Positions 31,389 to 58,559 of a stretch of DNA of 64,000 bases are shown here, piece after piece. The position numbers were made by a program, and so were the translations under genes. This DNA is from Astropecten irregularis (taxonomy: Eukaryota > Echinodermata > Asteroidea > Paxillosida > Astropectinidae): the NCBI GenBank assembly GCA_963971285.1, contig OZ020259.1:6820001-6884000 (forward strand), in the 5' to 3' direction. The notes under the pieces are model-generated. The model was not told where the DNA came from. It did no database searches and saw only the letters and a program-made list of their open reading frames with translations. How positions within the stretch are numbered: the first letter of the stretch is position 1; every line of letters starts with the position of its first letter.

Positions 31389-31522
31389 GTAAGCAAAGAT
31401 GAAACAAATATTTACCTGTAACATAAGTGCACGAAGGCTGTAATTTGTTTTTGAACCGTCTTCATAACATTCATAAGAACAGTTTCACCCTCATGTAACG
31501 TCTCTGTAACACACATGCTGAA

Positions 31523-34281: not shown

Positions 34282-34503
34282 TTATTGGCTTGCAGTTATA
34301 GAGATATCAAAGGTCGATGTCTGAGTACCAGTTTTTGATTGGCATGACACGGATCTTGATACCATTGCGATATCGTCCGGCTCGGCTTGCCGTTTGCGTC
34401 TCCATCGACCGAGAAAAATGCAGCACACTTGACTCGTATACGGTCCAATGATTGTACGAACCTCATCACGCCAAACGCAAAGCAGAACGAACACAATAAA
34501 CCC
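34282..34503 (-). CDS. Gene C last exon: TM7 and C-tail
   Basis: Acceptor TCTTACAG, then GFIVFVLLCVWRDEVRTI (TM7 into helix 8), a CC pair, basic GRWRRKRQ and a Ser/Thr-rich tail ending in SITASQ and TAA at 34282-34284. The tail is short (about 55 residues) with no recognised PDZ motif. Confidence 0.88.
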   Translation of the reverse strand, partial: GFIVFVLLCVWRDEVRTIIGPYTSQVCCIFLGRWRRKRQAEPDDIAMVSRSVSCQSKTGTQTSTFDISITASQ

Positions 34504-37500
34504 CTGTAAGACAAAACGAGAAAATATTATCATTTTCCCTATAGTTATACCAGGGGTCAATTTCATAGAGCTGCTAAGCACCAAAATTGCTTAAGCACCA
34601 AAATCCGTAGTGAATGGAATCAGTATGCCACCCAAAAGCCTTGTGAGCATAACATTCCCTGTGTATGTTATGCTCAACAAACAAAGGCCGAATACAAGTC
34701 GAAAGCAGTAAACATCACATGAAAATGTGGTTGGTAATTATGTTTGATCAAGGAAGACTTTTCATAATGAAGTAATTTTTGTGCTTAAGCAGCTCTATGA
34801 AATTGATCTCAGCTTGAGAAAACAAGTTTCTGACTTTCCTTTTTAAATGTTCGCTTAGCAAGACATTCAATCCAAATATAAGAAAGCAATCAAAAATAGC
34901 AAAACCATCATAGCTGGCCAGATACAGCCATACAATAACTAACTAATAACAAAATTAAGAAGCCAAGTACAGATTAATAGAAAATACTATTGACCGTATT
35001 AAGTAGCTCAAAAAATAACCAACAGCCAATCTATTTGAAAATTATACTACAAGTAATAAACTGTTGCAAACTGTTCATCAACCAACGTATTCTTGGATCG
35101 TGCGCGTAGCATTGTACATAAATACGGGATGTGTCACCTGTCGCGTCTCGCACAGTGCGCGGCGCAGTTCACCGAGTAACATCAGGGGCCGATTTCACAA
35201 AGCACTAAGATTGATCTTAAGTGTGAATTCATCTTAAATGCTAAGCAAAATGTGATGTCACAATACTAATAACAATGGTGATACTAAACAACTCATCTTG
35301 AAATTAATCTTAGTGCTTTGTGAAATTCAGCCCAGGGTACGGATTTTTTGACTCCAGTAAAGATGGCGGCTGCAGCATGTGCGTCCACTCCGAAATAACG
35401 ACAACGCGCACATCTAGTTTTTTTTTTTTTTTTTAATCTATAACTGGAACGTTTTATTACCTGCAAGAGGTTGAAGAGATAGAAGACCAGCCGAAGCACA
35501 AACGTTGCACCAGTGATTGCCAGATATCCCAAACCCCAAGACAGTCCTAAGAGGGCGGAGATACCGACAGCATTCTGGAGGCGTTTGGTGATCGTCCGAG
35601 AGCGGGATACCCTTCGTAGGACCAAGACAGAGGTGACGAAGTTATGGAGGACGGTTACACCAATGGGAGCAAAGAGACTAATGTACATCACCACACCAAG
35701 CCGAAGGAAACAACTGCACACAAAAACCAAATATTTCTTATAGATGTTGAAAAGAATCTTTAAGTTATAATACATGATTGGTAAAAGTCACAGAACAACA
35801 CTCCACTTTTGTCTAATCAAACATTATGAAATAATAATCCTGGGAAAATTTCAGCTCAAACGGACATGTGAATCACGTGAAAATAGCGAAGACCTGACTC
35901 AATGTTTTTATAAAACATAAAGAATGTTTTCGTCTTTGTTCGACTAATTTCGGGATAAATACACAATTTCAGGCGGAAATGTTTGGAAGACATGTTTCTA
36001 CCAGCACTATCTTCATATCCTGAAAGTTATACGTAAATCTGTGAACATTAAGCTATGTTACCAAAGTATGATAGTACCTTTAGGTACAGGCTTTTTGTTC
36101 GATCACACGACACTGCTCGACCAATAATATCGAACCTTTTTAATACAATATCTCCACACTGCCCAACTTACCAAAACTCATTGTTGTAATGATCTGAAGC
36201 AACTGCGAATGTAGTCCCAAGAATTATGAGTGGAGAGCCTTTAGGATTCAATGAAATGTGAATGGACATCAAAAGTCGTCAGGTTTTGTGTGCACATTCA
36301 AACTTGAAGTAAATGATAATAGATAATAACCTTTAATTGAGATATTCAGATGTTCAGATGCTTGCGAGAGTGTTAGTGAGGATTGAAATATAATGCTGAT
36401 TTGCAAATTTTGCAACCGAACAGAGCTAGCTGACAGAATAGGATATGACATGGGGCCAATTTCACGGCGCTGCTTAGCACACAAATTTGCTTCGCACAAA
36501 TATGTCTTGCCCGGTAAAACAAACCCATCATTGAACATTTCGTTTGATATTCATGGTCAGTGAACAACAGCCAAAGAACAATCACAAGCGGTACACAGCA
36601 CATGGACATTGGTTGTTAATCCTGTTTTTTAAGACAGAAAAGTTATGTTTAGCAAATGTGCTAAGCAGCACCGTGAAATTGGCCCCAGCATTAAGCAGGA
36701 TACAGCTCAGTAAACGTTATAGACCGACTGTTTTCCTAAGGTTCGAATCTCACGACTGTACGTTTTAAAATAATAAACATTCAGGGGTCGATTTCACGAG
36801 GCCCAACAATCGATCGTAACTCGAGTTACGATCGATAACCCATCGTATCCTACGTAGGGCTCCAAGTCCTGCGATTGATAGTAGACCTAAGTTAGGAAGA
36901 GTTTGGTGAAATCGACCCCTGGACTTATTCCTTACCCCATGCAACGAGGCTAGCCTTCAGCATATAAAAGGATGAGTCCCCTCGACTCGTCATGCAGGAG
37001 TGGATGTTCCTGAATTCAACTGCTAGCCAAATCACGGTAGTCAGAGCCAAGTAGTGGAGTAAAGCAGCCACAGTCATACAACCAACTCCTGGCCCCTTCG
37101 GTGTTCAAGTGACAAAACTGCATATCAATATCTTGCAAAAAAGGCTTCCGATATGAATGCACGGGAACAGTTTCAGATACATCTGTAATGACTTGGTAAT
37201 TTGGTTGGTAATTACTAGCTCAATAATGAGGCTCTCGAGCTGCAACATGTACTTAATTAATTGCAACACTTAGATGACATTTTCATTCTCAAAATTCCAA
37301 GTATATCATGACTTGCAGCGCTAGAAGGCACCCGAGGTGGCATTAGAATAACTGCAAGGGGACGGTTGCAGACACATTTTCTTGCTAAAATTGGCAATTA
37401 CTCTCTCAATAATGAGGCTATAGAGCTGAAACCTGTACTTAAATGTAGCCACAGATGATCCCTACAGAACGGCATCAGTTTAGCCACATTTAACAGACAT

Positions 37501-40500
37501 TTGGTATTCTTAAAATTCGCATAGTATAGCATGACTTGCAGTGCTAGAAAGCAGCCAAGCTGGCATTGCAGAGTCTTCAGAACTTTGTGCATTCTCTAAA
37601 TACGCTAGACAACCAAATTACTCACCCTAATATGGTCGAATCCTGCACGAAACACGACATGCAACATCATCAAGGACACGCAGAAGCTGACTAGAATCTG
37701 TCGTGATCTGCTAATCCATACCTTCCTGCAAGTGGGAAACAAGAGACCAAGCCAGTAAGCCCTCCCATAAAATGTTCGGAGTAAGGGGGGCCTGATAACG
37801 TTTTGATCCTAGCAGGATCTTTCTAAAGGCTATCATGATCTTCCACAAAGGGTAAAACTTTAGGCTTAAAGAAATATCCTGCTAGGATCGAAACGTCAAG
37901 CCCTCCTAACTCCAAGCAAATTATATGACACGAAAAATATTTTATGAAGCGCCTTTCCAAGAAGATCAAAGCGCTGTACATTATTATTATCCCTGATTAT
38001 CGGGCCATAATTTAAATTCCTGAAACCCTCTTAACTCCCTAGGGGAGCATACAGCCCTGGCTACTGTAAAGCGCACAGAGGCTAATCAAACCACACAGTC
38101 ATCTCTACCCTCGCAGGTACCCATTTACACCTGAGTGGAGAGGAGCAATATGTGACAAAGCGTCTTGCCCAAGGACGCAAGCACCACTTGCCTATGACTG
38201 GATTCGAACCCACAATCTCTAGATTGACCAAAGGATCTTGAGTTCGACACTCCAGACCACTAGGCCACAGCACCCGACAATGATGGGTGCTTTAGGTAAA
38301 GAGAAGTATTCATTCGCTGTCTTACCTAATGCCAATGTATACAACTGTCGTTACAGCCAGGAATGTGATGGTGAGTAGACAGCCAACCTGGCTGATTTTA
38401 GTTTCCTTCTGGTTACGGGGAGGAACAACTGTACCAGCTCCCTGGTCTCTGACATCCTTTACATAAAAACCAACGAAGACAAAGTAATCAGTATGAGCAA
38501 ATCATTTGGCTGCAGAGGAATCAAATAAGCAAACCCTAATTTTTTACGTACCACGAGGACGGCAAAGTTGGCTACGTGGCTACAATTGCAAGCCACTGTG
38601 GTAGCTGTCCGCTCTACAAGCTCACATCCCATTGTAGACCAGTCCCCGACCCCGTCATTCTGATCAAAGTCCCAGAAGACACACTGGATGCTGGTTCTAT
38701 TTGCCTCAGTTTTCTTTATGGTCGGTGCCTTTTTAAGAGGTAAATACAAACAAGGTAATGGTTTCCAGGAATCTGTAAAGGTATACAACTTAGTATTAAT
38801 CTACATAATTATCCTTGTACAAATTGAAGATACTGCTGGATATAAGAGCCTGAAATGTTCTTCTGTAGTATAACCATACCCTGAATGTAATAAGCACCGG
38901 TTCCGTCAGATTAATCAAATCAACCCCCATCACTGACAGCGAGGTCACAGATCCGGCGATCCAAAGACTGCGACCTTTATCTTCATGAGATCTTCTGATC
39001 GTCTCCGACTGGAACAAGGTGTCATCAGCATAGACGATGAAACTGGCTCTCAACGGGGCATAGCTGTTGTCTAATAAGAAAGCATTTTCTCAAATTACCA
39101 CCGAGGACAATAATTATAGTATCACTTAATTATCATACTTCGTGGGGTTCGGAGAGTGAGTATTCTATTTCGATTCTAAAGTTGTTGACTAAATGAAAGC
39201 TTCCCACCTCCAATACGCAGTCTTTTACTTTTATGTTGAACACGGAGGGATCTTTTGAGTTGCACTGATTGGGATGAAGGGTCTAGACAAGGCAATGCTG
39301 CACTGCATGGGCCTCTTCTCCACACTCATCCCATCTGGCCATGGCAACTTTTGATCGCCCTGTTCCTGTTCTAAGGTGATTGAGTGCCTTCCACTGGACC
39401 CATGGTGCTTCTGAACCTGGAGGGAGGGCTTCAGAAGGAACCAACAAAAGGGACAAAACATAAGTACACTAACCATTGTCAGATGGAAGCAAGTCGACGA
39501 GATTAGCTGGTAATTTGATGGATGCTACCACATTCTCAGATATTTCACTGGTATTAATGAAGACCTTAACATCAGTCCCAGCCAGACTGCCTTCTGCAGG
39601 TTGTTGGTTGGGTGACTGCTGTTGTACCAACACAAAGGTGACACCATTTTCAGCAAGCATCCAGTCTAGAGTGACCGCCTCAATATGGATGGTGTCCTGA
39701 CGTATGCTGACCTGACCTCCCTGCTGGAGACTGAAGGTGACCTGATCCTCTACGGATCGGATGATGGCCGAGGAGCTTGCACTACTAGTAATGGAAACGC
39801 CTGGGTTCGTATCAATACTAGTGATGATATTGTTGACAGTTTCAATAACCAACTCTGTAACCTACAACGGAAAAGATATTATGTTATGCGGTCATGGGAA
39901 CGATCAATAAGAATCTGTAGTTCTGTACCCTAATTCATATTTCAAGTATCAAATAGATGGCATGATCCCAGTGGTACATCAACAGGTGACCAGGACTGTC
40001 TGTGTGACCAAAATAGTAAGACTACTTCAATAGTGCTTCAATAGCGGATAATACTTTTCATCTAATGCACGAAGCTTTGGTTCACAAGAGGTAAACATAT
40101 GCTTCTTCTCATCGTCTTTCCCAAAATAGATTCTTCAGGCTTTTGAGCTACAGTGCCTAGAATGCTTTTGAGGAATCCTTGACATCATAACCAGAGATAA
40201 ATAAGAAAGATGATTATTTATGACAATCAAGAATGAGAGTCATACCTTTATGTCTCCGATTCTGGTATTGACGATGTTCATCAAGACACCGGAAGGTACG
40301 CCAACATCTTCTTCATCAAATGACCTAGACGTGCGATTGGCCAGGAAGGCAGCAACCTCGAGGACATTCCCCTCAGTCACCTCAATCTAGAAGCAAGAGC
40401 GCATTCACTGGTACAGAGGAATTCAACAACATCGTGGTAGGACCTCCCACGGCCCTGAGCCATCGCATTGACTCATTGTCAAGTTGACATGGGTTCGTTC

Positions 40501-43500
40501 CCTGCTGATGGCGGCCGTTTGGAGGACAACCGTCCAATCAATCACTGAATTTTTATCACAAGACAAAACGTCGACTGCCTGGACAATGACCAGTAACCAT
40601 TGACAATCTCTAAACTATGCATTGAACATTCTATAGGACGCCAATGATGCAATAGCTTTGCAAAAAAAAAAATGTTTTAAAGGTGCCATCAAATAGTTGT
40701 GACATAATGTTTGAACTTAAATCTTCTACAAATTTGAACGTTGACAGGCATGATGCCAGTCACGTTGTAAACATACACATTGCAATTACCTTTAAAACCT
40801 CGGCGAGAGACAACTTATCCCGATGTGAACCACAACTGTGAATGTCAATATGATCCTCCCACTGAACAAAACCAGCATCCACGATTGAACAATTCCTGAA
40901 GGAGAAAGGTCGGCCAGCTGTAGGTATCAATTATTGATACAAAAACGGTGTCAGTTTAGCCATTTTACCTTGATTGTGAACAAAAACAACATGAGCAACA
41001 GCAATAGTGGAGCAATAGCAAATATGGGGTGCTGTGGCCTAGTGGTCTGGCGTTTCATACTCAAGAACTTGGGGTCAATTTACAGATTGTGGGCTTGAAC
41101 CCAGCCATGGGGTTTATAGTGGTGCTTGCATCCTTTGGCAAGACGCTTTGTCACATACTGCTCCTCTTCACCCAGGTGCAAATGAGTACCTGTGAGGGTA
41201 GAGATGGCTTTGTGCTTGATTAGCCTCCGTGCGTGCGCTTATAGCAGCTGGGCTGTATACTCCCCATGGAGTTGAGATGGTTTCAAGAATGTTAATGTAG
41301 CCCAGTGACCAGGGGACAATAATCTGCGCCTTTGAATGGTACTTAACAAGATTCTGTGCGCATAACAAAATGATGTAATATCATTGTTATTATTATGAAC
41401 AAAAACAACATCAGCAGCAGCAATAGAGGTACAAATACGAACCGTTTGTGGTCATCAGCGGGCACCGCGCGATAGAAACCGCCGTCGACTCTTGGAGAGT
41501 CACTGGCCAGATTAGACCATCGGGACTCGTATCAGACGGGCAGAATCCTAAAAAGCAACAAAATACACACTGTCATTTATTTCTGGTAAGAAAACCAAGC
41601 GATTCCCAAAAAGCACCCTAAGTGCTGTTGATCTAAATCCTGAAGAAATCTCATTGGAAGATGATGAGAAGGTACTTTTAGAGGTGGGAGGCAACCCTCC
41701 CAGCGTTATTCTCAGTAAAACCCCACGGAATCAGATAATCACTGGAAGCTCAATCCAATTCATGACCGCCTGTACCTGGACGTGGGCCACCAGAGAAGAA
41801 AGGAACCGCTATGCCAGCCGGAGTCCCCTAATAATGTAAGGGGACCCAGGCACGCCTTGTACTGTGTCTCAAAACAAGCAAAATAAGGACACAGATAAGC
41901 GAATTTCGCCAAACGTTTGTGCAGTGTCCGCCCTTTAAAAAAACAAATTCATGAATGAGACGTCACAAGTCACCTTTGATGGTCACATAGAAGGAGCAAC
42001 GTAATTCCAGGCCATGCATTGGGAACCACTGCTGGTAGCTTACTTCATGGGTTCCAATCCGTAACGTGGCCCTGGGATTGGTACTGGCGGTGAAATTTAT
42101 TGGTCCATCCCAGCCGGTTAGAACCGGTTCCAGCCAATTCACACTGGTTCCAGTTGAGCCTGGACTGGCTGAGGCTGTCGTGTTTGCTGGACAGACGATA
42201 TCCACCACTACAACAACAACAAAGTTTAGTTTTAGATAATAACAGAAGTAAAAGGAAGCTTTCTCTATTCATAAAGATGGCATAACCAACTAAGGCTGGG
42301 TAAACAAAAGTTGGAGGGAAATTGTTCACACAAACCTGTTACTGTCACAATGAAATCACAAGTATGTCCATTCCAAGAACCGTCCGTGGCATAGTACGTC
42401 ACTTTAGAAACTCCTACTGAGAACGTCCCAGTACCATTTTGGACGCAGTTGCTAGTTGCAAAGCAACTAAATGTGACGTGAGCAGGACCCGAGTTATCAG
42501 TGATGATCGGAGGGATCCAGCTGTGCGACGACTGATTGGACGAGGAGGTGACCGGTACAATGACGTCATCAGGGCAACCAGTGAACGTTGGAGGTTCGGT
42601 ATCTACAAAGGGATGACAAAGAGATATCATGGGAGTCGCTAAAATGAATTTAAAAGTTGATCCAGGACATAAATCTAGATTCGATTTCACGAAGCCCCAT
42701 TATGATAACCAATCGTATCCTATGACTTATATGTAGGTCTGCAATGCATAATGTCCTACGATTGGTCTACCCAGGGGTCGATTTCACCAAACTCTTCGTA
42801 ACTTACTATCAATCGTAGGACTTTTGATGCATTGAGGTCCTTCGTGGGACATGCCCCCTACGATGGGTTATCCTTCGTTACTCGAGTTACGATCGATCGT
42901 AGGGCTTCATGAAAAAGACCCCAGGACTGTCTACTTAAGAAGTAGCTTACCAATAACAGTTATGAACATGTCACACGTTTCCTTGTTACCGGATCCATCT
43001 ACTGCAGTGTACCGTAACACGTAAGGAGGACTCGTCAGATTCAAAGTGATGACGTCATCGACGGAGTACTGCGGTTCACCCAGGTCGACAGTGACGGTAA
43101 CCGAGGCATAGGTGTCGGACACAAAAGCTGCACCAGGTAGCGAAAATGTTGCAAAGTCCTCACCGGAATCGGTAGGAAGGACTTGACTAGCGGGACACGT
43201 AATGATAGGAGGCAAGTTATCTGCCGTAAAAGACCAATGAGAGAGGAAGGATTTTAATTAATGCTTACAACTTCTTCTATTGTTTCATAATTATTTCAGG
43301 TAGAGTATAGACACAATAGCAAATACTGTCAATTTGAGCAACAACACCACAAAAGCAAACTTAGATCAAAATCATTAACCATTTGGTGAGAGGGGTGTGG
43401 AAGAGAGCAGAATATTCCAATAGGGGCAATTGACAGAAGTGCGCCACCAAGAGTTTACAACTTGTGGCCAATCACAATGCACAGAATGTGTCTACCCCAT

Positions 43501-46500: not shown

Positions 46501-49500
46501 CGACTGCACGTCACTCCAGCATCATATTCACTATTAACAGAACCGTTGTTTTGAAACGTTTTCTTGTATTCACATTGTCCGATGCCTGTTTCATCTCCGC
46601 TGCAGGAAACGTCTTTCAAGGTATGCAGAGTCGTGTAAAGGTAATCAGTTGCGGACCAGGCACTGTAGGCAGAAGGGAAGCCTAGCTGACGACAGACCAC
46701 CCGGGCCTCATTTAAGCTCCATCCATTGCCAGAGACAGAGCCCCAAAAACATTTGTCGAATACTTCCACCAGTCCAGCGTACTCTGAGCTTCCAGCAGCT
46801 AAACGAACTGGAAATAAAATCAGAAAGAAGACTATCAAACTGCATTTTTATAACTCAAGCTGCTTCAAATCATACAAAAAGTATATCTGTCGTTTAATAT
46901 TGTATAGAGAATTGAGACATCGTTATCAAACTACTACCCTGTGCCACATTAAGTACGATCGAACGTCTGATACATGCGTGCATGCCAATTTGATGCACAT
47001 CAGCCAATCAGGTCTGTTTTGAAAACATTTCCGTCAGGATCGTGACAATTGATGGAGATCAATGGTCGCGACGGAGGATATTGAATTTGATTGGTCAAAT
47101 CCTACAGGTCAGTGCTGGGTTGGCTTGCATAATTAATCCGGAAATTTGCACGCATGTGATAGACGCTCGCTCGCTGTACGACGAGTACGTCTTTCAGTAA
47201 CCACTCATCAGAATGACGAGCACACTATGTCACTAGGCTATTAGTTCTCAACAGTCAGCAACAACTCTTTCTTCTGTATTGAGTAACTACTCAATGATAC
47301 ATTACTAAAGATACTGATATCATAAAATACGACGATATCCAGGCAGATTCTTCTATTTTCCATCCTGAACTACTGTTTGCCAGTCTGGGTACCAATTCTT
47401 CCGAGGATATTCCTGTAACGCTTGCGGTAAATGACAGATACTGACAGTATCCACTTGATAAAGCTATGAGTTACCTGCTAGAGAGTTGATGGGATTTTTC
47501 CCTTTTCCACAAGCCACTCCAACGTCCTTCTGCATGCAGCTGTGATTTAACAATCTCTTCTGAGGACATTGTTCGATGCTTGATTCATTGCCAGTGCATC
47601 CGATATTGCTAAGGACTACCGGCCCTGATCTTTGACCAAAATAAGCGTTGGTCCAGGCCTGGGATGCTGCAGAGTAGCCCAGCTGTCGACAGATGACGTT
47701 GGCATCTTCAATGCTCCAGCCATCATCACAGATTGTACCCCATTGGTCTTGATGGAACACCTCCACTCTCCCTAAATATGGAGTGCTTCCATACACAAGC
47801 CGTACTGGCACTGAAAAAAAATGATACGACGTATTAAGATCATTGTGATGCCTTTGTCGGAATTAAATTTGCTGGAACAATTTGGAACACTGCATACATG
47901 GTGGAAAATGTGGTGCTAAGTTGGTGGTCATACGTAACTACACGAATGGACTGACAGCAACGCAACAGAGAAGACAATTCATATTCCATCATTATCGAAT
48001 GTACATGGGTGGTCACAAAGTCGTGACTGTACTGTCTTAGTCCACCTGCCTTCTCAGCCAAGCAACCTCTCAGTTAATCGGGTCAACGGAGTGACAGACA
48101 TGATGACAATGGCACTTACCTTGGTGAAGTGCTGGACGAGTACAGCTGACACCAACAATGGATCGAACTTTGACACTACCCTCATGCATATACTGAATCC
48201 ACCCGCTGTGGTTACACTGTTCAATACTGGATTCATCTCCATTACATTCCACATTACTTAGGAGAATCGGTAGATGCCACCCATCTGATCCCTCATATGT
48301 CCAGGCTTGGGCTGCTGAGGGGTAGCCTAGCTGTCGACAGATCACGTTTGCCTCTTGTATTCCCCAGTCTGTCCCAAAGTCTGAAAGGCCATTGATTGTA
48401 CCCCAGGTACATCGGTAGTACAGTTCCACTCTACCTTCATAAGGGCCATCTCCACCAACGAGGCGTACTGAGACTAGATAGAAATAGCATGGCATCACAA
48501 ATTACAAAAATAAAAAACATAAAGTCCGAATTTTGATTTTACAATGATTTGTGTCAGAAAAGATGCTGATTAGTCATGAAGTTTTGAGGTCTAAAAACAT
48601 CTGAAAAACGTTCTACTTGACGCTAAATTTACTAGTACTAAACACAGACCATTCCCGAAAGATGTGCGCCTCCAAGAGTTTGCAATGCGATGGCCAATCA
48701 CAATGCGCGTCTGGAAAATTGTCGACCGATTCCGCGCATTGTGATTGGCAAAGGTGTTGCAAACTCTTGGTGTGCACAATATGGAATCGCCGGTATTGTC
48801 CCACAGTGGACCCTTCCGGCCTGTCATTCAAACTGTACGCATTGACCAATTGGAAGACGCATTTTCATCAGGTGACCACAAAAGGCTCAGTCAAACTCGG
48901 TCACTGTCGGTATGTAAAACACACATGTGGGAAGGCCTTTAGAGCAAAGCCGGCAGAGTCCATTGATGTGGGTATTAAAAAGGTGAACTCACCGGGTTGA
49001 GGCGGGGTGATATCACAGACTACACTAACATCTGCGTGATGGTTACTGTTATGATGGAACCAGCCCAAGTGGTCACACTGAACGATGCTGGATTCACTGC
49101 CCTTGCATCCAATTATCTCCAGGAGAATTATCCCTGATTTCCGTCCGAAGTTGGCATTGCTCCACGTCTGGAAGGCTGACGGGTAGCCAAGCTGTCTACA
49201 GATCACATTAGCCTCCCGGATTTTCCAGGTTTGACTACAGACTGTGCCCCAGATCCCGTTATAATTCACCTCAACCGTCCCTTCGTTTGGAGTGCTTCCA
49301 TCAACAAGACGAACTGCAACTGGATTTTTGAAGCAACAACATCGTAATCCAATGTTTGCAAGCAGTAATACCTATAAACGTCCAAGTGAAGCACGCTGTG
49401 ATAATATGATATTGAATTATTCATAATATATAGATAATAATTGAGATCATTACCAGCATGCAGCTGTTTTCTACTTTTGTCCCCTTCCCCTGACCACTTG

Positions 49501-52500
49501 CCCACCTCTATCTTCTCGTTGTGGTTTCCCAGCCTTATTGTATGCTTTTCGTTTCCCTGGTCACTCTGTCCCCCTTTGTTCTAATCCTCTCATCCATTTA
49601 TATGTATGTTAAATTGCATTTTCGTGTCCTTGTCATATAGCCTTTAAGAAGATCCTGTTAGGATCGAAACGTCAGATCCTTCTGTCTTTGAGCACTTTCT
49701 AACTTTGTTATAGAGGTTGGTTAGACATGAAGCGAGATGTGTTTCTTTCTTCAGTTTCTTATGAATCGTTTCAGTCAACTCACCTCCAGTAAAAGGGTTT
49801 GAAGTGGAGCAAGTGACTCCAGCATCAGAATAGTGACGACAATCGTGATTAAACCATCCACTGTGTTCACACAGTGCAATGTTTGGTTCATCTCCTGTGC
49901 ACCCAACTCTGCTCAGCAGGACCGGTCCTGATCCTGGGCCAAAGTGAGCCTTGGTCCAAGCATGTGATGCAAAGGGGTAGCCCAGCTGTCGGCAGATAAC
50001 GTTAGCGTCCCGAATGTCCCAGTTCTTATCGCAGACCGTTCCCCAGTGACACTGGTAGTTAATCTGTACCGTTCCTTCATTTGATTTGTTTGCACCTACA
50101 AGACGGACTTCACCTACGAGCAAACAAGAAATCCAAAATAAGCACAACATTTATTAAAATGAATGTTTCTTTTGGCTGTTTGTCTCACTGCAGTCTGACT
50201 AAATTACAATGCAATATTTTTACATTATTAAAAACATGTGTAGACACGTCATCCGCGTACTAACTGTACACGTACACTTCGCGTGTTGTTATACACTGGT
50301 GCCGAGGTTGTGATCACCACGGATACAGACATAGCTCTCTAGACAAGCCGGTCCCACGCAAAGATTATAGCGGGGTCCCACGTATAGGTCTCAGCGTAGC
50401 CATAGCTCCAAACGGTTAGGCTTTCTACTAGCCCGGTCGAGTTCGGGCGCCACATAAGTTCTCGGCCGTTCGTGAACGAGCCAAGATGTGTACACAGTAC
50501 GTTATCACGGTCTTTCGATGGCGTGAACAAGGCCACGGGTCGTCTCAGGGACAGCCCGCCCGAACTCGACCTTGCAGGAGGGATGGGGTGTATTTGGGAT
50601 TTTAAAGGGAGAATATAGGATTTGCAAGGCCTCCAAAAAAATCATTGAGTTTGAGACAGAAAATGGACTCAACAGTTCGTAAACAGTGCAAACAGTCACC
50701 ATGGGAAATCTTGGTTCATCAGATGATGGGTTTTTCAAGGAAATCAAGATTTAGTGTCTCAGTTTCCAAAGATCGGTCGTCCGAACGATTTTTGGAACAA
50801 ACAAAAAGTAAACTATTCTTCATGTTTTATAGAAAATCGAGTCGGGTTTTCGCTATTTTCTCGTGACTCAGATGTCCGATAGAGCTCAAATTTTCACAGG
50901 TTTATTATTTCATGGACATTTTTGATCAGACAAAGTATGAGTGCTGTCCTGTGACCTTTACCAATCATGTATTATTTATCTTTAAAGGTACGGAGGTATA
51001 TAGATGCCACCAGACTTGATATTTTTACAGGCAAGATGACGACATCCTGAGACAATTTATCAGGAGATATAACGACTTTTCTAAACCAATATGTCGACAT
51101 CCTGGGAGATCGTAACAAAATGCTAATCGAGGGCCTAGGCTGAACCGGTCGTGAGCTCATACTGTACCGTGATAAATTATGTCAGCCGGATGTCGAAATC
51201 TTGCCTGTAATTTTGTCGTCATCCTAAAGTACTTCATGCACAGTATCTCAAGAAATCGGATAGCATCTCGAGATCTCCGTTATAGCGTTGGGCAAACTCG
51301 TGTAATTATTATTATTTTAGGGTTAGGGTTATGGTTGTGATGGCGGCTATTATGACGTGTATTTAATTATCTCACCCATTTTAAATTAATGCAATGCAGG
51401 TATTGGCCGCCACCGTGGCTATACATACTTTTCAACCCTCTCCTTTTTAAATTACCTTAGGGCGCCCCTTTTTATTACGGTGGGTCTCTTTTCTTTATCA
51501 CCTTGAGGGAGGGTCGGTCAGTCGAAAAAAAAGTTTGGTGGAAAATGAAATCTGGCTGAATACACAACAACCTCAAGAAAAATGATGAGAAATGTTCATT
51601 GTATCCACTGTTATCTTGATTGGATATTTTTTTGTGTTATTTCTTTGATATTAAGTATTTGTATAGGCCTATTGGCAAAATTTGTCTCCGTAAATTCTGG
51701 AATATAATTTGTTTTTTCTTGAATTTATATTATGTCATTCTGGACAGGGTCGGGTCGGTCGGGAAATGAGAACCACATTAATAAAAAGGGGCGCCCTTAT
51801 CGCGGGTGCAAATTGGATCCGGAGTCACATTCCATGAAAAAAAACAATAATAGGTCCGCTTTCACCTGAAAGACCCGCTTACTTTCATGTCCGGCTTCTG
51901 GCCTGTCGGCCTATGTTCTGTATGATGAAATGATAAAATTTCCTCGATAGATGCGGTGGTTTAATATTTATACATGAGGGGCCCGCCTCATAGGGCAAGA
52001 AACATATAATCACGCTTGCTTTCACTTACTGCAGTTAAGTGGAAGCAAGTGTGATTATGTTTTTTGCCCTACTATTGGTTTTCTTTTTACTTTATAACTA
52101 TAAAGGAATATATTACAAACGGATTTAATCCTATAAAGCCATCTCTTTTCTGAAGACTTTTGTTAACATGTTAACATTTATTCAGCAAGGTTTCGACATT
52201 ATAGGCTATTGAAGGTGATAGTTATTTGGCTTCTATACCATCCCATTCTATGCGTGGTCCAAGAGCCGGTTCAAGTTCCGACAGATTGATAAGCTACATA
52301 AAAAGTGCATATAATAGCTGTGCTGATAAAACTCTAACTGGCCGGCTGTCATCGGTAATGTAGGCCTCCTAGCCTGTGTGTTTGAGGCTGTTACATTTTT
52401 AATTAAAACTGCATCATTATTAATTAACCTTTGCCGCTAAGCATCCCTCGCCCCTTGGGCAAATGGGACTCATAGTGAAATTCATGAGAAATTCGTGCCA

Positions 52501-55500
52501 ACTCTATATTAAAAGTATTATTATGTAAAGCGAGCACTTTGGATACATACACTATTAGAAGGTATCATAACATCCGATAACAGCTGCATTGGATTATCGT
52601 TGGAGCCGATTACTATTATTTAACTTCACCAATTCTTGGACGTGCATGAGTTTTTTATGGGGCTGCATTTTTTTCTAGACCTGGATTTCTCAGGGGATTG
52701 TGCACTTTTTTTAAGGGGTTATTCCCCAAGGGGAAAGAAACTTCAAATACAACCTTTGCTTATCTGGACAATATTAACTGTCCACATTTGCTTAGGACCC
52801 ATTCACTTGTACGTGATATTTTTTTAAGAAAGAAAATCCAATATGAGCCTTCAACTCGTCCTTCAACTTGTCCTATGTGAGAAATGCTTCTGATCGGCGG
52901 CTTGCGCACATGCAGGAGCTTTTCTTTCAGGAAATTCTGTGCAGATAATTTGGGTTGTTTCAGGAAATGTTGGGGCGGTAAGTTTTAGGTATTTTTTTTT
53001 CTTGTATGTTTTCTGGCAGTAAAGACTTTTTCATTAACAAGATATTACTTTTTCTGGGGTTGGCATTAATTTTTCAGTAATCGCACGGTTATTGTAGGGA
53101 CTTGGCTTTCTCTTAGGTTCATAGGAATGAATTTGAAACGTATATGGCGGGATATGTTATAATTTTCAGGAGAACGTGAATTCATCCAGATCTCTTTTTT
53201 TCTGTTCGTTTAAAGTAAATCGAGATTTCTTTTCATTATACTGAATACATGATAATAATTATAAAAACTGTGCATGATTGAATGATGGACCGTCATTGAG
53301 GTTAAACGACCTTCGAAATTTCAGTTTTATTACACATTTATCTTGAAGGTGCGTTGGAGGGAAATAAAATTCGGGTTGTCGATGATTGGTGTTGGCCGAA
53401 ACCATTTTGCGGCATACTTGTAGGCCCTACATGTATCTTTTTGCTGCTTGTCTTGAGTGTGTTCCAGACCACAAAGACGTCTTTCCCGGGACAAGATAAC
53501 TTTCTGATATCGGAAATCGGAAGCCAGCGGCGTTTCTAGGAAAAACGGTAACCGGACAAGCGCTAAAATTGCCCCCCCCCCCCCCCATTCAAACTTCTGA
53601 TACAAGTGGAAAAAAATCAGACAATTTGAAATTGGAATGTTCTTTATTTGTTAATTGGTTCAGAATTCCAATAACTTCAACATAACAACTATCTTTCTTT
53701 TGTCCTCATGCGTTCGTGATATAACGTAATAGCCTATGTCTTTCCAAGTGAAACACTTGAAACTTCCATAGACCTATAATGGTACCGGTATATATTGTGT
53801 CCTTGTCGATATACATGTATTTTGTGTTCATCCTTTTTTCAATAGGCCTATAGGCCCGAGCTTTTTGTGTCGTATAAACTCCCGATGTTTCATTAATTTC
53901 TGCCTTTCATGTTGTGACAAATGAATGTTATCAACCAACTTACCTCAAACGACTCCAACAAAAAGACCCAAACTTAGTATTTCTTTGTTTCCCAGTTGCG
54001 AGCCAAAGAAAAGTTCGGGTACTCGGCAAAACCCGCCCCGAAAGCTGTCAAAGGTTTCGGATGCTTGGACAGTGATACGAGAATTCGGATGAAATACATA
54101 AACATAATTATAACAGCTACGGCTGTTTTATGCAAATTGCATTCAAATCGAAAGATAAAAATTATGTCAGACATTATTTGAAAATTATCGGTTTTTTAAA
54201 AAAACAAACATCAGAGACATGAATATTTTCGGTCATTAATCCTTGGGTTGCAACAATTTCAAGCTCTTTTCCTCTCCTATCCCATTCGATATGACACGTT
54301 CATAATAATTGCAAGAAATAAAATTAAGACCGATAAGACAAAGCTTATTGTGCAGATCACGTTCACACCAATGATCATCTCCTTGAAATGACTGGCATTT
54401 GGGGGCATGTACTTCCTCACTTGACTATAGTTTTTCAGCTATTGTCTCCGATCCAATGAGCATATAAAAACTGTTCTTCAATCAATTTATGAAACCCTTT
54501 AACAAGGACACCCACGACCATCAATCTAAAAATGTCAGTTTTCAAATGACTTTAAAGAGAATAGTTAGGTTAAAATGTAACCTATCAGCTATGCCCAATT
54601 GTTAAAAACAAATCCATGATGCACACATTAAAAGGGACAGTTTTATGTATGATGCGTTATGACATCCTTTATAATCGAAATGAATGTTGACTCAAGCTCC
54701 CAAGTCCCAAGAACTTTTTTAAAGCTTATTCGAAATAACCCAGAGTATATTTTCCGCATTATGTACAGTATATACAAATTATTTACTTTATTTTGACTGA
54801 AAATTATACTATTGTGAACATAGCACATAATTATAATTATATTATAATTATATTATACGCATGATGACATCTTTTTCTCCATGCTAATAACTGTAGCCTG
54901 GCTTACGTACTTCTCGTGATTCAATTTTACTCAGTTTTATTATTCAGCAAGCCATCTTGATTTTATAGTCGTGGCCGTCTGACTTCACACAGTAATATGT
55001 GGACACGATATGTACCGCAAGTCAAAAGAGGGCGCCATTCAAGCTATTGTAGGTCTGTCCACAGGTCGCAAAACACTTTTATGAAACATTCCTTCATTGT
55101 GTGGACTTCACTGACAGCACTAGAAATATATTTTTTTCTCTGAATTAATGAAAATAATAGCATTGTATTGTGTGGACCAAGTGCAAGTCCACACAGTGAC
55201 AACATGTCCACAGGTTGTTGGTGTGCAGTCCGAATTGGGTCCACACAATGAATGCAAGGCTAACACACTTAGACAAACATAACATACACATAACATACAC
55301 ATTCGTACACGTTAGGCACTATACTCACCGTGAAGGACAGGTCCAGCATGACATGTAACCTTGACATCTCTGTCATGACTACAGAGCGGGGTGATGATAT
55401 CGCTGTATTCACAATCTTCAACGCTCGATTCGCTACCGTTACATGTGACCGATTCCACAAGACTCGGTCCCAACCCAGGACCGAAGTGAGCTCCGGTCCA

Positions 55501-56124
55501 GGCCTGGGATGCCGAGGGGTAGCCTAGCTGTCGACATATTACGTTGGCATCTTCAATGCTCCAATCTTCGTCGCAGACTGTACCCCATTGGCCTTGGTAG
55601 TAAACCTCCACTCTACCTTCATTCGGAGAGTTGCCGTCAACAAGTCTCACTGAAACTGATCAAATGGAATGAGATGATATCTAACCTGATAGCATCTATC
55701 TTACCTATCTAACCATTTAGATCTTTTCAAAGCTAGATCATTCAATTACTCGATTGTTGAACAAGCATTAAGCTCATGTTAACAATTTGTATAATAAACT
55801 AACCAATTGCATTGGATGTACCGGCACATGTGACTCCTACGTCTTCTCGGTGCTTGCAGTCCTCTCCAAACCATCCCGTATGGTCACATTGGTCGATGCT
55901 AGACTCGTCTCCTTTACAATTGACAGTGTGCATGAGGACCGGTCCTGACCCCGAGCCAAAGTGAGCTCTGAGCCAAAAATGGGATGCAGAGGGGTACCCA
56001 AGCTGTCTGCAGACGACGTTTGCATCCTCAATTCTCCAGTCGTAATCACAAACTGTTCCCCAGGTGCAGTTGTAAAATACTTCCACTCGGCCTTCGTTGG
56101 GACTATTTCCATCGGACAGTCTCA
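34282..56124 (-). CDS. Gene C: SRCR(10)-HYR(3)-HormR-GAIN/GPS adhesion-type GPCR, 24 exons, 5' end missing
   Basis: Probable cell-surface receptor. Twenty-four exons, all with GT-AG ends and matching phases, encode about 2,043 residues plus stop. Order with approximate residues of the visible part: SRCR 1-10 (1-1106), HYR 1-3 (1107-1363), hormone-receptor-like domain (1364-1435), GAIN region (1436-1675), GPS (1676-1734), TM1-7 (1740-1995), short tail. Every SRCR and HYR exon is a phase 1-1 module, typical of exon shuffling. SRCR domains have six cysteines (group A). TM3 LLHYLALTTVIWLAVE, the TM3 and loop-2 Cys and TM7 QGFIVFVLLCVWRDEVR mark an adhesion/class-B receptor. The GPS keeps its Trp and Cys but has HVA at the cleavage point, so self-cleavage is unlikely. 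SRCR- and somatomedin-B-bearing adhesion receptors are known from amphioxus, as I recall; this exact order I do not recognise. The signal-peptide exon is not seen and may lie among satellites or beyond the window. Confidence 0.88.
34553..34810. repeat. GGGGCCAATTTC-family inverted-repeat element, copy 2
   Basis: GGGGTCAATTTCATAGAGCT and AGCTCTATGAAATTGATC are inverted ends. In gene C last intron. Confidence 0.75.
35185..35333. repeat. Fold-back element
   Basis: GGGGCCGATTTCACAAAGCA at the left and TGCTTTGTGAAATTCAGCCC at the right, continuing through CTAAGATTGAT / ATTAATCTTAG. In gene C last intron. Confidence 0.8.
35461..35713 (-). CDS. Gene C exon: TM5 and TM6
   Basis: Acceptor TGTGTGCAG, donor GTAATA. 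Reads CFLRLGVVMYISLFAPIGVT (loop 2 Cys into TM5), HNFVTSVLVLRR (loop 3) and GISALLGLSWGLGYLAI (TM6 with the GLSWGLG motif of adhesion receptors), ending VFYLFNLLQ in phase 0. Confidence 0.9.
35758..36084 (+). repeat. Mosaic M2/M1 MITE, copy 2
   Basis: Left ATAATACATGATTGGTAAAA (M2-like). Right CTGAAAGTTATACGTAAATC and AAGTATGATAGTACCTTTA (M1-like). In a gene C intron. Confidence 0.65.
36172..36238 (-). CDS. Gene C exon: TM4 (67 nt)
   Basis: Short exon, acceptor CCTAAAG and donor GTAAGT, reading SPLIILGTTFAVASDHYNNEF. Both flanking split codons (Gly and Cys) fit the neighbours. It keeps the small-residue TM4 and a Y before the loop-2 Cys. Easily missed because it is so short. Confidence 0.82.
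36452..36686. repeat. GGGGCCAATTTC-family inverted-repeat element, copy 3
   Basis: GGGGCCAATTTCACGGCGCT and AGCACCGTGAAATTGGCCCC are near-perfect inverted ends. In a gene C intron. Confidence 0.85.
36784..36920. repeat. Fold-back element, AGGGGTCGATTTCAC ends
   Basis: GGGGTCGATTTCACGAGGCC at the left, GGTGAAATCGACCCC at the right; the centre contains the palindrome CGATCGTAACTCGAGTTACGATCG in part. Related, longer composite copies at 42675-42925. Confidence 0.8.
36936..37095 (-). CDS. Gene C exon: TM3
   Basis: Acceptor CACCGAAG fits the phase; a nearer CCAG would create a stop. Reads GPGVGCMTVAALLHYLALTT, then VIWLAVEFRNIH and ends LKASLVAWG before GTAAGG. Conserved Cys, HY and W of adhesion-receptor TM3 are present. 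Confidence 0.88.
37626..37725 (-). CDS. Gene C exon: TM2
   Basis: Acceptor CTTGCAG, donor GTGAGT, 100 nt. Reads KVWISRSRQILVSFCVSLMM, then LHVVFRAGFDH, as expected for adhesion-receptor TM2. Phase in 2, out 0. Confidence 0.86.
37785..37915. repeat. Inverted pair of hairpin-GAAACG motifs
   Basis: GATCCTAGCAGGATC on one side and GATCCTAGCAGGATATTTC reversed on the other, each next to GATCGAAACGTC or its inverse. Further members at 23045-23100, 44285-44395, 45765-45870 and 49630-49690. Confidence 0.6.
37939..38276 (-). repeat. tRNA-derived SINE, copy 2 (most complete)
   Basis: Minus strand: TGTGGCCTAGTGGTCTGGAG (A box), GTGGGTTCGAATCC (B box), core GCAAGACGCTTTGTCACATA and GTGTAAATGGGTACCTG, and a TAATAATAATG-GCGCTTTGAT tail. 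In gene C intron between TM1 and TM2 exons. Confidence 0.85.
38326..38456 (-). CDS. Gene C exon: TM1
   Basis: 131 nt, donor GTAAGA. Juxtamembrane stretch DVRDQGAGTVVPPRNQKETK, then TM1 ISQVGCLLTITFLAVTTVVY, typical of adhesion receptors (small residue, Cys, LS/T pattern). Confidence 0.86.
38552..38728 (-). CDS. Gene C exon: GPS motif
   Basis: Reads CVFWDFDQNDGVGDWSTMGC, ELVERTATTVACNCSHVANF, AVLV, then donor GTACGT. The four Cys and two Trp of the GPS are in place. The cleavage triad, normally His-Leu-Thr/Ser, is His-Val-Ala, so the attacking hydroxyl is missing. The following ANFAVLV resembles a tethered agonist but begins with Ala. Confidence 0.9.
38880..39070 (-). CDS. Gene C exon: GAIN region, part 3
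   Basis: Acceptor TTATTAG chosen because it alone fits the phase; donor GTATGG. Reads NSYAPLRASFIVYADDTLFQ and ends SLSVMGVDLINLTEPVLITF, the beta-rich part that precedes a GPS. Confidence 0.82.
39474..39861 (-). CDS. Gene C exon: GAIN region, part 2
   Basis: Acceptor CGTTGTAG, donor GTTAGT, 388 nt, phase in 0 and out 1. Contains ELVIETVNNIITSI, then an Ile/Val-rich beta pattern and DVKVFINTSEISENVVASIK and ends LPANLVDLLPSDN. Confidence 0.84.
40246..40386 (-). CDS. Gene C exon: GAIN region, part 1
   Basis: Acceptor CTTCTAG, donor GTATGA, exactly 47 codons in phase 0. Reads IEVTEGNVLEVAAFLANRTS to NIVNTRIGDIK, the helical start of a GAIN domain. No stop; boundaries clear. Confidence 0.8.
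40790..40895 (-). CDS. Gene C exon: hormone-receptor domain, second half
   Basis: Acceptor CTCCTTCAG, donor GTAATT, 106 nt. Reads NCSIVDAGFVQWEDHIDIHS, C, then RDKLSLAEVLK. The spaced Cys and QW fit the end of a HormR domain. Confidence 0.78.
41027..41395 (+). repeat. tRNA-derived SINE, copy 3
   Basis: GCTGTGGCCTAGTGGTCTGG, GGGCTTGAACCC, CAAGACGCTTTGTCACATAC in order on the plus strand. Opposite orientation to copies 1 and 2. In a gene C intron. Confidence 0.8.
41439..41547 (-). CDS. Gene C exon: hormone-receptor (HormR) domain, first half
   Basis: Acceptor CTTTTTAG. Reads FCPSDTSPDGLIWPVTLQES, then IARCPLMTTNG. The CP..DG..WP.T and CP spacing is that of HormR. Donor GTATTT at 41438 is preferred over GTTCGT four bases earlier because only it keeps the frame into the next exon. 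Confidence 0.82.
41974..42207 (-). CDS. Gene C exon: HYR domain 3
   Basis: Reads VVDIVCPANTTASASPGSTG, NWLEPVLTGWDGPINFTAS and RCSFYVTIK. HYR (hyalin repeat) domains are Ig-like adhesion modules. Phase 1-1, acceptor TTGTAG, donor GTGACT. Confidence 0.85.
42336..42602 (-). CDS. Gene C exon: HYR domain 2
   Basis: Reads TEPPTFTGCPDDVIVPVTSS, WIPPIITDNSGP, VGVSKVTYYATDGSWNG and CDFIVTVT, the standard HYR order. Phase 1-1, acceptor TTTGTAG, donor GTTTGT. Confidence 0.88.
42675..42925. repeat. Composite fold-back element, TCGATTTCAC family
   Basis: Several copies of TCGATTTCAC, CGATTGGT and TCGTAGG words in both orientations, related to 36784-36920. In a gene C intron. Confidence 0.65.
42951..43220 (-). 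CDS. Gene C exon: HYR domain 1
   Basis: Reads NLPPIITCPASQVLPTDSGE, YVLRYTAVDGSGNKETCDMF and ITVIG. Complete HYR, phase 1-1, acceptor CGGCAG, donor GTAAGC. Confidence 0.88.
43513..43552 (-). repeat. tRNA-like A-box arm
   Basis: Minus strand GGGCTGGATAGATCAGCTGG then TAAGAGCGCTGG: acceptor plus D arm of a tRNA-like sequence, without a B box. SINE or tRNA relic, facing the one at 43621. Confidence 0.5.
43621..43694 (+). repeat. tRNA-like sequence (A and B boxes), likely SINE head
   Basis: GGGCTAGATAGCTCAGTTGG (D arm/A box), a 4-bp anticodon-like stem, then GGTTCAAATTCC (T arm/B box). The 3' acceptor strand does not pair with the 5' GGGCTAG, so I do not call a tRNA gene. It ends about 30 bp from the splice donor of SRCR 10. 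Confidence 0.55.
43727..44071 (-). CDS. Gene C exon: SRCR domain 10
   Basis: Reads [49 protein letters not shown] and VGVTC. Six-Cys domain with an extra Cys before WGTVC. Phase 1-1, acceptor GTTTCAG, donor GTGAGT. Confidence 0.9.
44874..45545 (-). CDS. Gene C exon: SRCR domains 8 and 9 (no intron between)
   Basis: One 672-nt exon codes for two complete SRCR domains, linked by a short QEDGHPSSA segment. Both have [27 protein letters not shown] and six Cys; they are very alike, suggesting recent duplication or homogenisation. Phase 1-1 overall. An intron seems to have been lost. Confidence 0.92.
46484..46807 (-). CDS. Gene C exon: SRCR domain 7 (divergent)
   Basis: Reads VRLAAGSSEYAGLVEV, FWGSVSGNGWSLNEARVVCR and DAGVTC. 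The usual WGTVC is WGSVS, so the second conserved Cys is Ser while a nearby Cys (DKCFW) may substitute. Phase 1-1, acceptor TTCCAG, donor GTGAGC. Confidence 0.88.
47025..47200. repeat. Dispersed repeat (copy 3 of 3)
   Basis: TCCGTCAGGATCGTGAC, TTGATTGGTCAAATCC and CGCTGTACGACGAGTA match 20640-20775. Confidence 0.5.
47475..47810 (-). CDS. Gene C exon: SRCR domain 6
   Basis: Reads [56 protein letters not shown] and VGVAC. Six Cys, phase 1-1, acceptor TTTTCAG, donor GTAACT. Confidence 0.9.
48120..48467 (-). CDS. Gene C exon: SRCR domain 5 (divergent)
   Basis: Reads [67 protein letters not shown] and VGVSC. It has an insertion after WGT, and the Cys of WGTVC is absent; RC before TW may replace it. 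The exon is 348 nt, the longest single-SRCR exon of the gene. Confidence 0.88.
48663..48778. repeat. Fold-back element, family M3 (complete)
   Basis: TGTGCGCCTCCAAGAGTTTG and CAAACTCTTGGTGTGCACA are inverted ends; GCCAATCACAATGCGCG also pairs with CGCGCATTGTGATTGGC. In a gene C intron. Confidence 0.85.
48993..49313 (-). CDS. Gene C exon: SRCR domain 4
   Basis: Reads [54 protein letters not shown] and VSVVC. The Cys of the WFNHDC position is not seen (HHNSNHH), leaving five conserved Cys. Phase 1-1. Confidence 0.88.
49784..50113 (-). CDS. Gene C exon: SRCR domain 3
   Basis: Reads EVRLVGANKSNEGTVQINYQ, CHWGTVCDKNWDIRDANVIC, ALCEHSGWFNHDCRHYSDAG and VTC. Complete, phase 1-1, acceptor TCGTAG, donor GTGAGT. 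Confidence 0.9.
50605..50990 (-). repeat. MITE family M2, reverse copy
   Basis: Reverse complement of the order at 6487-6858: ATAGGATTTGCAAGGCCTCC at one end and CCTTTACCAATCATGTATT at the other. Confidence 0.8.
51457..51799. repeat. Inverted-repeat element, AGGGCGCCCCTTTTTA ends
   Basis: AGGGCGCCCCTTTTTA (51459-51474) and TAAAAAGGGGCGCCCT (51782-51797) are exact inverted copies about 340 bp apart. No coding capacity. Confidence 0.8.
51993..52069. repeat. Short fold-back, GGGCAA..TTGCCC
   Basis: GGGCAAGAAACATATAATCA pairs with TGATTATGTTTTTTGCCC, with CGCTTGCTTTCACTTA / TAAGTGGAAGCAAG inside. Confidence 0.8.
55329..55649 (-). CDS. Gene C exon: SRCR domain 2
   Basis: Reads [56 protein letters not shown] and VKVTC. 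Six Cys, group A; phase 1-1; acceptor GTTTCAG, donor GTGAGT. Confidence 0.92.
55804..56124 (-). CDS. Gene C exon: SRCR domain 1 (first exon seen)
   Basis: Reads [51 protein letters not shown] and VGVTC. Acceptor AGTTGCAG and phase 1 start show that at least one more exon lies upstream. The frame happens to stay open through the intron because of a GAACA-type simple repeat, which I do not count as coding. Confidence 0.9.
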
Positions 56125-56348: not shown

Positions 56349-56859
56349 ACCAATGGAACCACAGGAGTTCCAACAAAAGAGGTACAATAGGGGGTCCACG
56401 ATTGCAGGCGATTGAAAATACTTGAACATGTGTATGTGTCTTTTAATAGATGTGAATAAAGCACACGGTGTACGATAATAATAATAACTAGACCAGTGTT
56501 TGTTGACAAACACTGAGCTGTTTCGCGTATGTTTTTATAAATAATATGAAAAACAAACATGAACACAATTGTCCCAGTACAGAGAAATAGCGGTGTTTTA
56601 ATTGTCGTAAACAACTACCAGGAGCGTCGTCACTCGTCCATTTAAACACGTATACAGATACATGTACATACACATGCCCATGGGAAACACATAAATGGCT
56701 GAGTCTACTATAGGCCAGTGCGCGTAGTATGTATGGTTGTGCATATGGGCGGTGGAAACAGCAAAATGATTGATTTTGTAGCTCGTCGTGCTCCGTTCAC
56801 GTGTACACAATTGGCCCACTACTATAGATAGCCATATCAGCGGTCCAAAAAGTTACAAA

Positions 56860-57815: not shown

Positions 57816-58200
57816 TCATATTTCTGTCACAAAGAAAGACCTTGCCTAACATTGACTTTTGGCGAAAGAATCATAATCATAGCCCTTACAACTTTTAAAT
57901 CAGAAGCTACTTCCTGTTTGACCGGAAGTAGAGGTCGTAGAGGTCAAGCAATGTATCACAAATGAAAGACCTTGCCTAACATTGTCTATTGGTGAAAGAA
58001 TCATGATCATACCTCTTACCACTTTTAAACAAGGAGCTACTTCCTGTTTGACCGGATGTAGAGGTCATAGAGGTCAAGCAATGTGTCACAATGAAAGGAC
58101 CTTGCCTAACATTGACTTTTGGTGAAAGAATCATGATCACAGCTCTTACCACTTTTAAATGAGGAGCTACTTCCTGTTTGCCCTGTACAAGTCAATGGGC
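57816..58200. repeat. 130-bp satellite, array 1 (about 3 units)
   Basis: Units contain GAAAGACCTTGCCTAACATT, GAAAGAATCATGATCATA, GGAGCTACTTCCTGTTTGAC and AGAGGTCAAGCAATGTGTCA; the GAGCTACTTCC words are spaced about 129 bp. Confidence 0.85.
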
Positions 58201-58559
58201 TATAGCGTGAAAAATATTTAAAAAATCATAAAAAATAAAAAAATGACGCTGTCTTGACGTAACTTCAGAATTACAATCCCGAACCTCCAATCCACCAATG
58301 TACCAATTTTCAAGGCGATCGGCCATTCCTACTATGTGTTATAAAAATCGCATTTTTTATGACGTCATGATGACGTCACCAAATTTTTGTCTATGCAGTG
58401 TTCATCTATGGTGTATGCTGAAGAATTATCAAAAAGAAATTCAAATATATCCAGTTTCGTTTACAAGATATCGTAAAAAGAACTTTAATGACCCAAAATT
58501 TCAATAAATCATAAAAAATCAAGGAATGACGTCATGATGACGTCATTGAAATTTTTCGA

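Follow-up and report, generated by a model that had tools for sequence, protein, structure and literature searches.

The 64,000-nucleotide stretch of Astropecten irregularis DNA analysed here (the window; bases 6820001-6884000 of contig C23, in a genome of 475.7 Mb) carries 24 exons of a gene that we explain, with moderate confidence, as one of a family amplified on this contig and encoding a very long adhesion GPCR that works by the mechanism proposed below. The predicted architecture is a probable signal peptide, 14 SRCR domains, three HYR domains, a GPR128_N/HormR-like module, a GAIN domain with its GPS motif, an ADGRG-like 7TM unit and a short tail. SRCR-bearing adhesion GPCRs are already known; what looks new is the order with HYR domains, together with a GPS that lacks the usual cutting residue.

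Gene structure

Splice reconstruction gives 24 minus-strand exons between positions 56124 and 34282 of the window, all with AG/GT borders and with phases that agree, and the in-window spliced frame holds 2,049 codons with no internal stop and a terminal stop codon at 34282. The rebuilt model coincides exactly with the sequence-only reading in its first base, its stop and its number of exons, and the unbroken product of 2,049 amino acids bears out the claim of phase-consistent exons in a single open frame. That reading's ten SRCR domains and 24 exons also stand for the part inside the window, but they describe that part only because the gene runs past the window edge: in full, the model comprises 2,523 codons in 29 exons, encodes 14 SRCR domains and is open throughout. 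The exons in the window are as follows; each rests on the splice model, with further support named in its line.

55804-56124, minus, SRCR exon S1 (fifth SRCR of the whole gene); Pfam
55329-55649, minus, SRCR exon S2; Pfam
49784-50113, minus, SRCR exon S3; Pfam
48993-49313, minus, SRCR exon S4; Pfam
48120-48467, minus, SRCR exon S5; Pfam
47475-47810, minus, SRCR exon S6; Pfam
46484-46807, minus, SRCR exon S7; Pfam
44874-45545, minus, double SRCR exon S8+S9; Pfam
43727-44071, minus, SRCR exon S10 (final SRCR); Pfam
42951-43220, minus, HYR 1 exon; Pfam, 23.1 bits against a cut-off of 21.7, marginal
42336-42602, minus, HYR 2 exon; Pfam, 45.2 bits
41974-42207, minus, HYR 3 exon; Pfam, 31.4 bits
41443-41547, minus, GPR128_N/HormR-like module exon 1; profile match below the Pfam cut-off
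40790-40917, minus, GPR128_N/HormR-like module exon 2; profile match below the Pfam cut-off
40246-40386, minus, GAIN exon G1; alignment to ADGRG2/G6 chains
39474-39861, minus, GAIN exon G2; alignment to ADGRG2/G6 chains
38880-39070, minus, GAIN exon G3; alignment to ADGRG2/G6 chains
38552-38728, minus, GPS exon with motif CNCSHVANFAVLV, H-V-A replacing H-X-S/T; Pfam
38326-38456, minus, TM1 exon; Pfam
37626-37725, minus, TM2 exon; Pfam
36936-37095, minus, TM3 exon; Pfam
36172-36238, minus, TM4 exon
35461-35713, minus, TM5-TM6-TM7-start exon, without six third-intracellular-loop residues kept in other copies; copy comparison
34282-34503, minus, last exon: TM7 end, cytoplasmic tail and stop

The remaining SRCR exons lie upstream of S1, past the window edge on C23, all of them phase 1 to 1, and Pfam confirmed an SRCR stretch in each of the four.

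C23 6893551-6893207, SRCR exon U1
C23 6891620-6891300, SRCR exon U2
C23 6888647-6888312, SRCR exon U3
C23 6888206-6887883, SRCR exon U4

A putative signal-peptide ORF (MYDSENYHHRLWLSIILIRLIVAILEQASTT, C23 6894483-6894390) is found, with the same donor site, in all six copies of the gene examined, and on that basis its exon probably encodes the signal peptide. These four SRCR exons and the likely signal-peptide exon fall outside the window because of an insertion of about 11 kb in the intron between U4 and S1 (C23 6887883-6876124). In the window gene, copy A1, this intron measures 11,758 bp; the other four full copies have between 701 and 2,028 bp. Compared with copy D, its first 363 bases match at 98% and its last 354 at 94%, the two being separated by a single block of roughly 11 kb, and the insertion shows a 3-bp overlap at the junction. 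Part of it lies in the window.

56488-64000, no strand assigned, in-window part of the ~11-kb insertion in the U4-S1 intron, with 130-bp and 147-bp tandem repeats

In copy E, the 5′ fragment, similar repeat DNA occupies the corresponding position in this intron, below 7178500. A window edge and an intronic repeat insertion of this size can conceal part of a gene.

Copies of the gene on the contig

The family comprises at least five full copies, one 5′ fragment (E) and one diverged copy (F). The five full copies on C23, A1 (the window gene), A2, B, C and D, are near-identical, with 14 SRCR domains each, and all 29 projected exons have AG/GT borders in all five. Three of them, A1, A2 and D, are open throughout; two in-frame stops interrupt B and a frameshift interrupts C, so parts of the family are decaying. 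Among the net exon-length differences from A1, 18 of 19 are multiples of three, the exception being in copy C. The same regularity is seen from SRCR10 to the last exon, where all three coding indels in each pair (A1 versus A2, C and D) are multiples of three, against 58 of 73, 48 of 67 and 49 of 64 non-coding indels that are not in the same three pairs, the non-coding positions comprising the introns and roughly 0.5 kb of 3′ flank. Four open stretches in the introns of A1 resemble pieces of a receptor and were not accepted as exons. That at about 40580-40430 is disrupted in the paralogues by a stop or by indels that shift the frame, and that at about 36615-36440 has paralogue indels of 13, 10 and 2 bases; the stretch at about 34906-34820 meets stops in A2, C and D and has, by eye, no adjacent acceptor; and that at about 39261-39154, unbroken in the paralogues seen, was left out on splice phases that by eye do not fit.

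As point estimates without a significance test, dN/dS values for A1-A2 are 0.32 in the SRCR part, 0.24 in the 7TM part, 0.51 in the HYR part, 0.83 in the GAIN-containing segment and 0.37 overall. Point estimates for the first four of these are 0.33, 0.36, 1.10 and 0.79 in A1-D, and 0.62, 0.65, 0.86 and 0.49 in the very young pair A2-B; for the short signal-peptide exon the value is 1.77 in A1-D and undefined in A1-A2. In the SRCR and 7TM parts the values for A1, A2 and D thus stay below 0.5, and constraint on the HYR and GAIN parts is weak. Divergence is also uneven along the gene. Between A1 and A2 it is 5.6-13.2% in 13 SRCR exons and 0.8-7.5% in 13 of the 15 exons from HYR to tail, with G3 (12.2%) and T7 (14.4%) as outliers; between A1 and D it is 0.9-6.2% in the SRCR exons. 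This pattern along A1, A2 and D points to exchange among the copies by recombination or gene conversion.

The two remaining members are of different kinds. Copy E, as fetched, consists of the signal-peptide ORF and U1-U4, with no later exon within the next 38 kb. Copy F (C23 10006512-10031087) has SRCR, HYR, the two-exon module, GAIN, GPS and 7TM in the same order and on the same strand, and is 58% identical to A1 from the module to the tail. The part fetched holds seven SRCR domains and two HYR domains of the HYR1 type, which at 21.0 and 21.5 bits fall just below the 21.7 cut-off; HYR domains of the HYR2 or HYR3 type were not found in that part. A scripted search for splice sites of F at the phases of A1, made without a chance control, recovered a compatible acceptor for 14 of 15 exon starts, at most 26 bases away, and a compatible donor for all 14 exon ends, at most 13 bases away. 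The exceptions are G3, for which the script found no acceptor, and T4, which is 26 bases off, and nearer acceptors were read by eye; at the end of the last SRCR exon a second compatible donor 22 bases on was preferred, also by eye.

These copies bear directly on whether the SRCR half and the HYR-7TM half belong together. It could be argued that two neighbouring genes, one for an SRCR protein and one for a HYR-7TM receptor, had been fused by the sequence-only reading, and the shared order among the close copies would by itself be weak proof to the contrary, since they are 91.5-98.2% identical from SRCR10 to the 3′ end, introns included. However, the two halves stand together not only in the five close copies, each with the identical exon set, but also in the diverged copy F, which keeps the same order. 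Moreover, the phases match across the intron between SRCR10 and HYR1, and at 506 bp this intron is hardly long enough to hold a second promoter and signal peptide. The frame-keeping coding indels and the low dN/dS of the SRCR and 7TM parts also speak for one gene. On these grounds we reject two separate genes as very improbable; a single gene for an SRCR-HYR-GAIN-GPS-7TM adhesion GPCR, as judged from splice structure and copy comparison, seems to us nearly certain.

Domains of the receptor

A Pfam search of the joined protein found SRCR, HYR, GPS and 7tm_2. The GPS and 7TM parts of the sequence-only reading are confirmed by strong matches (GPS, E 4.6e-15; 7tm_2, E 3.9e-20, 72.6 bits against a cut-off of 20.6), and SRCR matches ten stretches of the window protein (E 1e-279). 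Its three HYR domains hold as well, the first only just: the three exons score 23.1 (HYR1, marginal), 45.2 and 31.4 bits, each above the curated cut-off for the whole protein, 21.7 bits, and no single stretch passes the Pfam cut-off alone. In the region before the GPS no Pfam GAIN model scored above its cut-off, and the GAIN domain is supported instead by profile alignment of that region with the ADGRG2 and ADGRG6 chains (ADGRG2, E 1.5e-56), which are also the best solved-structure matches for GAIN-GPS-7TM as a whole. With a 7tm_2 match and a GPS motif in a GAIN domain directly before TM1, the protein has the defining features of an adhesion GPCR (class B2).

The weakest of the earlier labels is that of HormR for the two-exon module before GAIN. 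The HormR profile (PF02793) gave no match there at E<=10, and GPR128_N (PF22257) fits better, at 21.5 bits against a cut-off of 27.2 (E 2.6e-4), with matches at E<=1 in all four family members scanned (best 9.6e-6). HormR as a firm label was rejected, its profile finding no match. The likeness to ADGRG7/GPR128 is correspondingly a weak match of this one module, and A1 does not classify as ADGRG7/GPR128, the GPR128_N and GPR128 GAIN profiles both falling below cut-off in it.

All 14 SRCR domains match PF00530, and 11 of them have all six group A cysteines, S4 being without one and S5 and S7 without two; with six cysteines and without the group B pair, the array belongs to group A of the SRCR superfamily. 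In eight of the 14 (U2, U4, S1, S3, S5, S7, S8 and S10) an extra cysteine stands in the same column, directly before the conserved tryptophan, and no other additional column has a cysteine in two or more domains. They could connect one domain to the next, or one receptor to another. Passages of PMC10855680 describe, from sponge, a ‘group C’ type of SRCR domain with seven cysteines. According to passages of PMC7043408, tandem SRCR domains such as those of DMBT1/SALSA bind microbes and polyanions via cation sites. The columns of the six DMBT1-type cation positions, placed via the residue spacing given in the same passages and a DMBT1 domain sequence, are all acidic or amide in two of the 14 domains (U2 and S8); S9 has five of the six, and the count is lower elsewhere. 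The window gene thus resembles DMBT1/SALSA in its tandem SRCR domains and differs in cation sites that, with the columns so placed, are mostly incomplete and in the extra cysteine of eight domains.

The GPS motif and the third intracellular loop

In all five close copies the GPS (CNCSHVANFAVLV in A1) keeps the base histidine and has alanine after the cleavage point, so that it reads H-V-A where the self-cleavage motif is H-X-S/T; in this it differs from the ADGRG family. The diverged copy F reads H-A-T. As set out in passages of PMC13062082, H-X-S/T is the cleavage motif and ten of 32 human adhesion GPCRs are without it, so H-V-A does not exclude membership, and ADGRG5, cleavage-incompetent in COS-7 cells, signals via its tethered peptide. 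With H-V-A in place of H-X-S/T, normal self-cleavage of A1-type receptors is unlikely; an uncleaved receptor is predicted here, and in F the receptor is possibly cleaved at H-A-T. The tethered-peptide signalling put forward in the sequence-only reading must be qualified to the extent that prior self-cleavage is improbable in all five copies. In the tethered segment itself the customary hydrophobic positions, F3 and L6, are conserved.

A1 also differs from its relatives inside the membrane unit. Its TM5-TM7-start exon falls 18 bases short of the counterpart in A2, B, C and D, which amounts to six residues of the third intracellular loop, and the diverged F keeps these residues too. The deletion could weaken coupling in A1.

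Other loci

Other receptor-like loci lie in the same window. At 26438-31421 on the plus strand, three SRCR exons (60.5, 40.3 and 47.1 bits) are followed by an exon with a somatomedin-B-like cysteine pattern, recognised by eye and without a Pfam match, and by a 7tm_2 exon (E 2.3e-7); read as separate pieces, these exons are probably a second, different SRCR receptor gene, ending about 2.9 kb from the stop of the window gene, on the opposite strand. At 12528-7708 on the minus strand there is an adhesion-type receptor with somatomedin B (E 2.9e-7), a long ectodomain and 7tm_2 exons (best E 1.4e-14), and the three of its ORFs that were scanned gave no SRCR match. Long low-complexity open frames at 2301-3557, plus strand, with CLSLYLLV-type units in three frames, are probably no gene but a tandem repeat, and an open frame at 4301-4693, plus strand, resembles by eye an exon of glycine amidinotransferase. 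In the genome at large, SRCR hits are many, with 150 of 675 candidates scored. A dense one-strand SRCR cluster of about 17 kb on another contig (C29 12997654-13015112; L001, L002 and L004-L008) holds most of the best-scoring SRCR matches among those listed.

Discussion

The mechanism that we propose starts from what can be read in the sequence, namely the architecture, the one-gene structure, the low dN/dS at both ends and the missing GPS nucleophile. From there we infer binding, gating by force or ligand, G-protein coupling and a role in defence. The SRCR array would bind a repetitive or polyanionic surface multivalently, whether a microbial or host glycan or another cell, and the HYR domains would serve as a stalk. 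Tension or displacement on the GAIN domain would uncover ANFAVLV, the tethered segment, for the 7TM bundle, and the bundle would then signal via G proteins. Self-cleavage would not take part and the binding head would remain covalently attached to the receptor, because the GPS reads H-V-A. That the receptor signals in this way, as an uncleaved tethered-agonist receptor, is a view towards which we lean slightly.

What the head recognises is a separate matter. The same receptor could serve cell-cell, egg-sperm or self-recognition, or the clearance of the animal’s own material, with no dedicated microbe sensing, and this we take to be a serious possibility, if one that stops a little short of probable. 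The general role of adhesion GPCRs lies in cell adhesion, the DMBT1-type cation sites of the head are mostly incomplete, with at least five of the six positions in three of the 14 domains, and recent copies with a contrast in divergence between 5′ and 3′ halves would fit non-immune recognition genes as well. SRCR domains bind host proteins too, as passages of PMC7043408 state. Against a purely non-microbial role stands the link between invertebrate SRCR genes, though other genes than this one, and microbe exposure or immune or digestive tissue, as given in parts of PMC10855680, PMC7308585 and PMC6208332. Microbes as the main ligands are a possibility that we rate as less likely than not. A different objection is that A1 no longer signals and has become a decoy or scavenging receptor, or is in early decay. 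The HVA motif with its missing nucleophile, the six loop residues absent from A1 and present in A2, B, C, D and F, and the stops or frameshift in copies B and C could all be read in this sense. Nevertheless, the 2,523 codons of A1 are fully open, dN/dS in its 7TM part is 0.24 with A2 and 0.36 with D (point estimates), and uncleaved adhesion GPCRs can signal, according to passages of PMC13062082, so that loss of signalling appears to us quite improbable, and we still lean slightly to the reading of A1 as an uncleaved receptor that signals.

The sequence-only reading did not recognise this domain order, and that impression holds in part. SRCR domains in adhesion GPCRs are on record in amphioxus (Nordstrom et al. 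2008, PMC2246102), where, as in the window gene, they are N-terminal to an adhesion-type 7TM; HYR is absent from the text of that paper, and the passages concerned give neither the order of the SRCR domains nor their repeat number. The same paper describes adhesion receptors with somatomedin B, a domain likewise found in one, perhaps two, neighbours of the window gene. Multiple SRCR repeats are reported for the sponge adhesion GPCRs Aq712029 and Aq715659 (Krishnan et al. 2014, PMC4302439), which share this feature with the window gene in a comparison by description only, and HYR is absent from the text of that paper too. In the starfish Acanthaster planci, 7tm_2 is among the top five extra domain types of SRCR proteins (2024; PMC10855680, Table 1); the parts of that source concerned give no architecture, and its text does not contain HYR. 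In the main texts of the open-licence literature searched, no SRCR-HYR-7TM receptor was found: a 2026 adhesion GPCR review (PMC13197933) has neither SRCR nor HYR in the first 300,000 of its 412,533 characters, the main text of PMC12716839 has the letters HYR only within an unrelated word, PMC12373286 contains none of the six terms looked for in it, and PMC3927612, in the passages concerned, has SRCR in other proteins. What was already published, then, is the SRCR-bearing adhesion GPCR, and the combination with HYR was found in none of these sources.

Vertebrate ADGRG receptors are not known to carry SRCR or HYR domains, and DMBT1/SALSA and the other tandem-SRCR scavenger proteins are not known to be GPCRs. 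As a rule, pattern-recognition receptors pass their signal on via adaptors or kinases, and the usual ligands of GPCRs are small and diffusible. The most far-reaching form of the proposal, a lineage-specific and recently amplified family that sets a 14-domain scavenger head on an uncleaved, force- or ligand-gated adhesion GPCR and recognises microbes, is, taken whole, unlikely. Even so, with a scavenger-type binding array set on a G-protein-coupled core, it would become possible to test whether recognition at a surface leads directly to G-protein signalling. With H-V-A in the close copies and H-A-T in their sister F, cleavage and signalling could be compared within one family, in which nature itself supplies members that have the GPS nucleophile and members that lack it.
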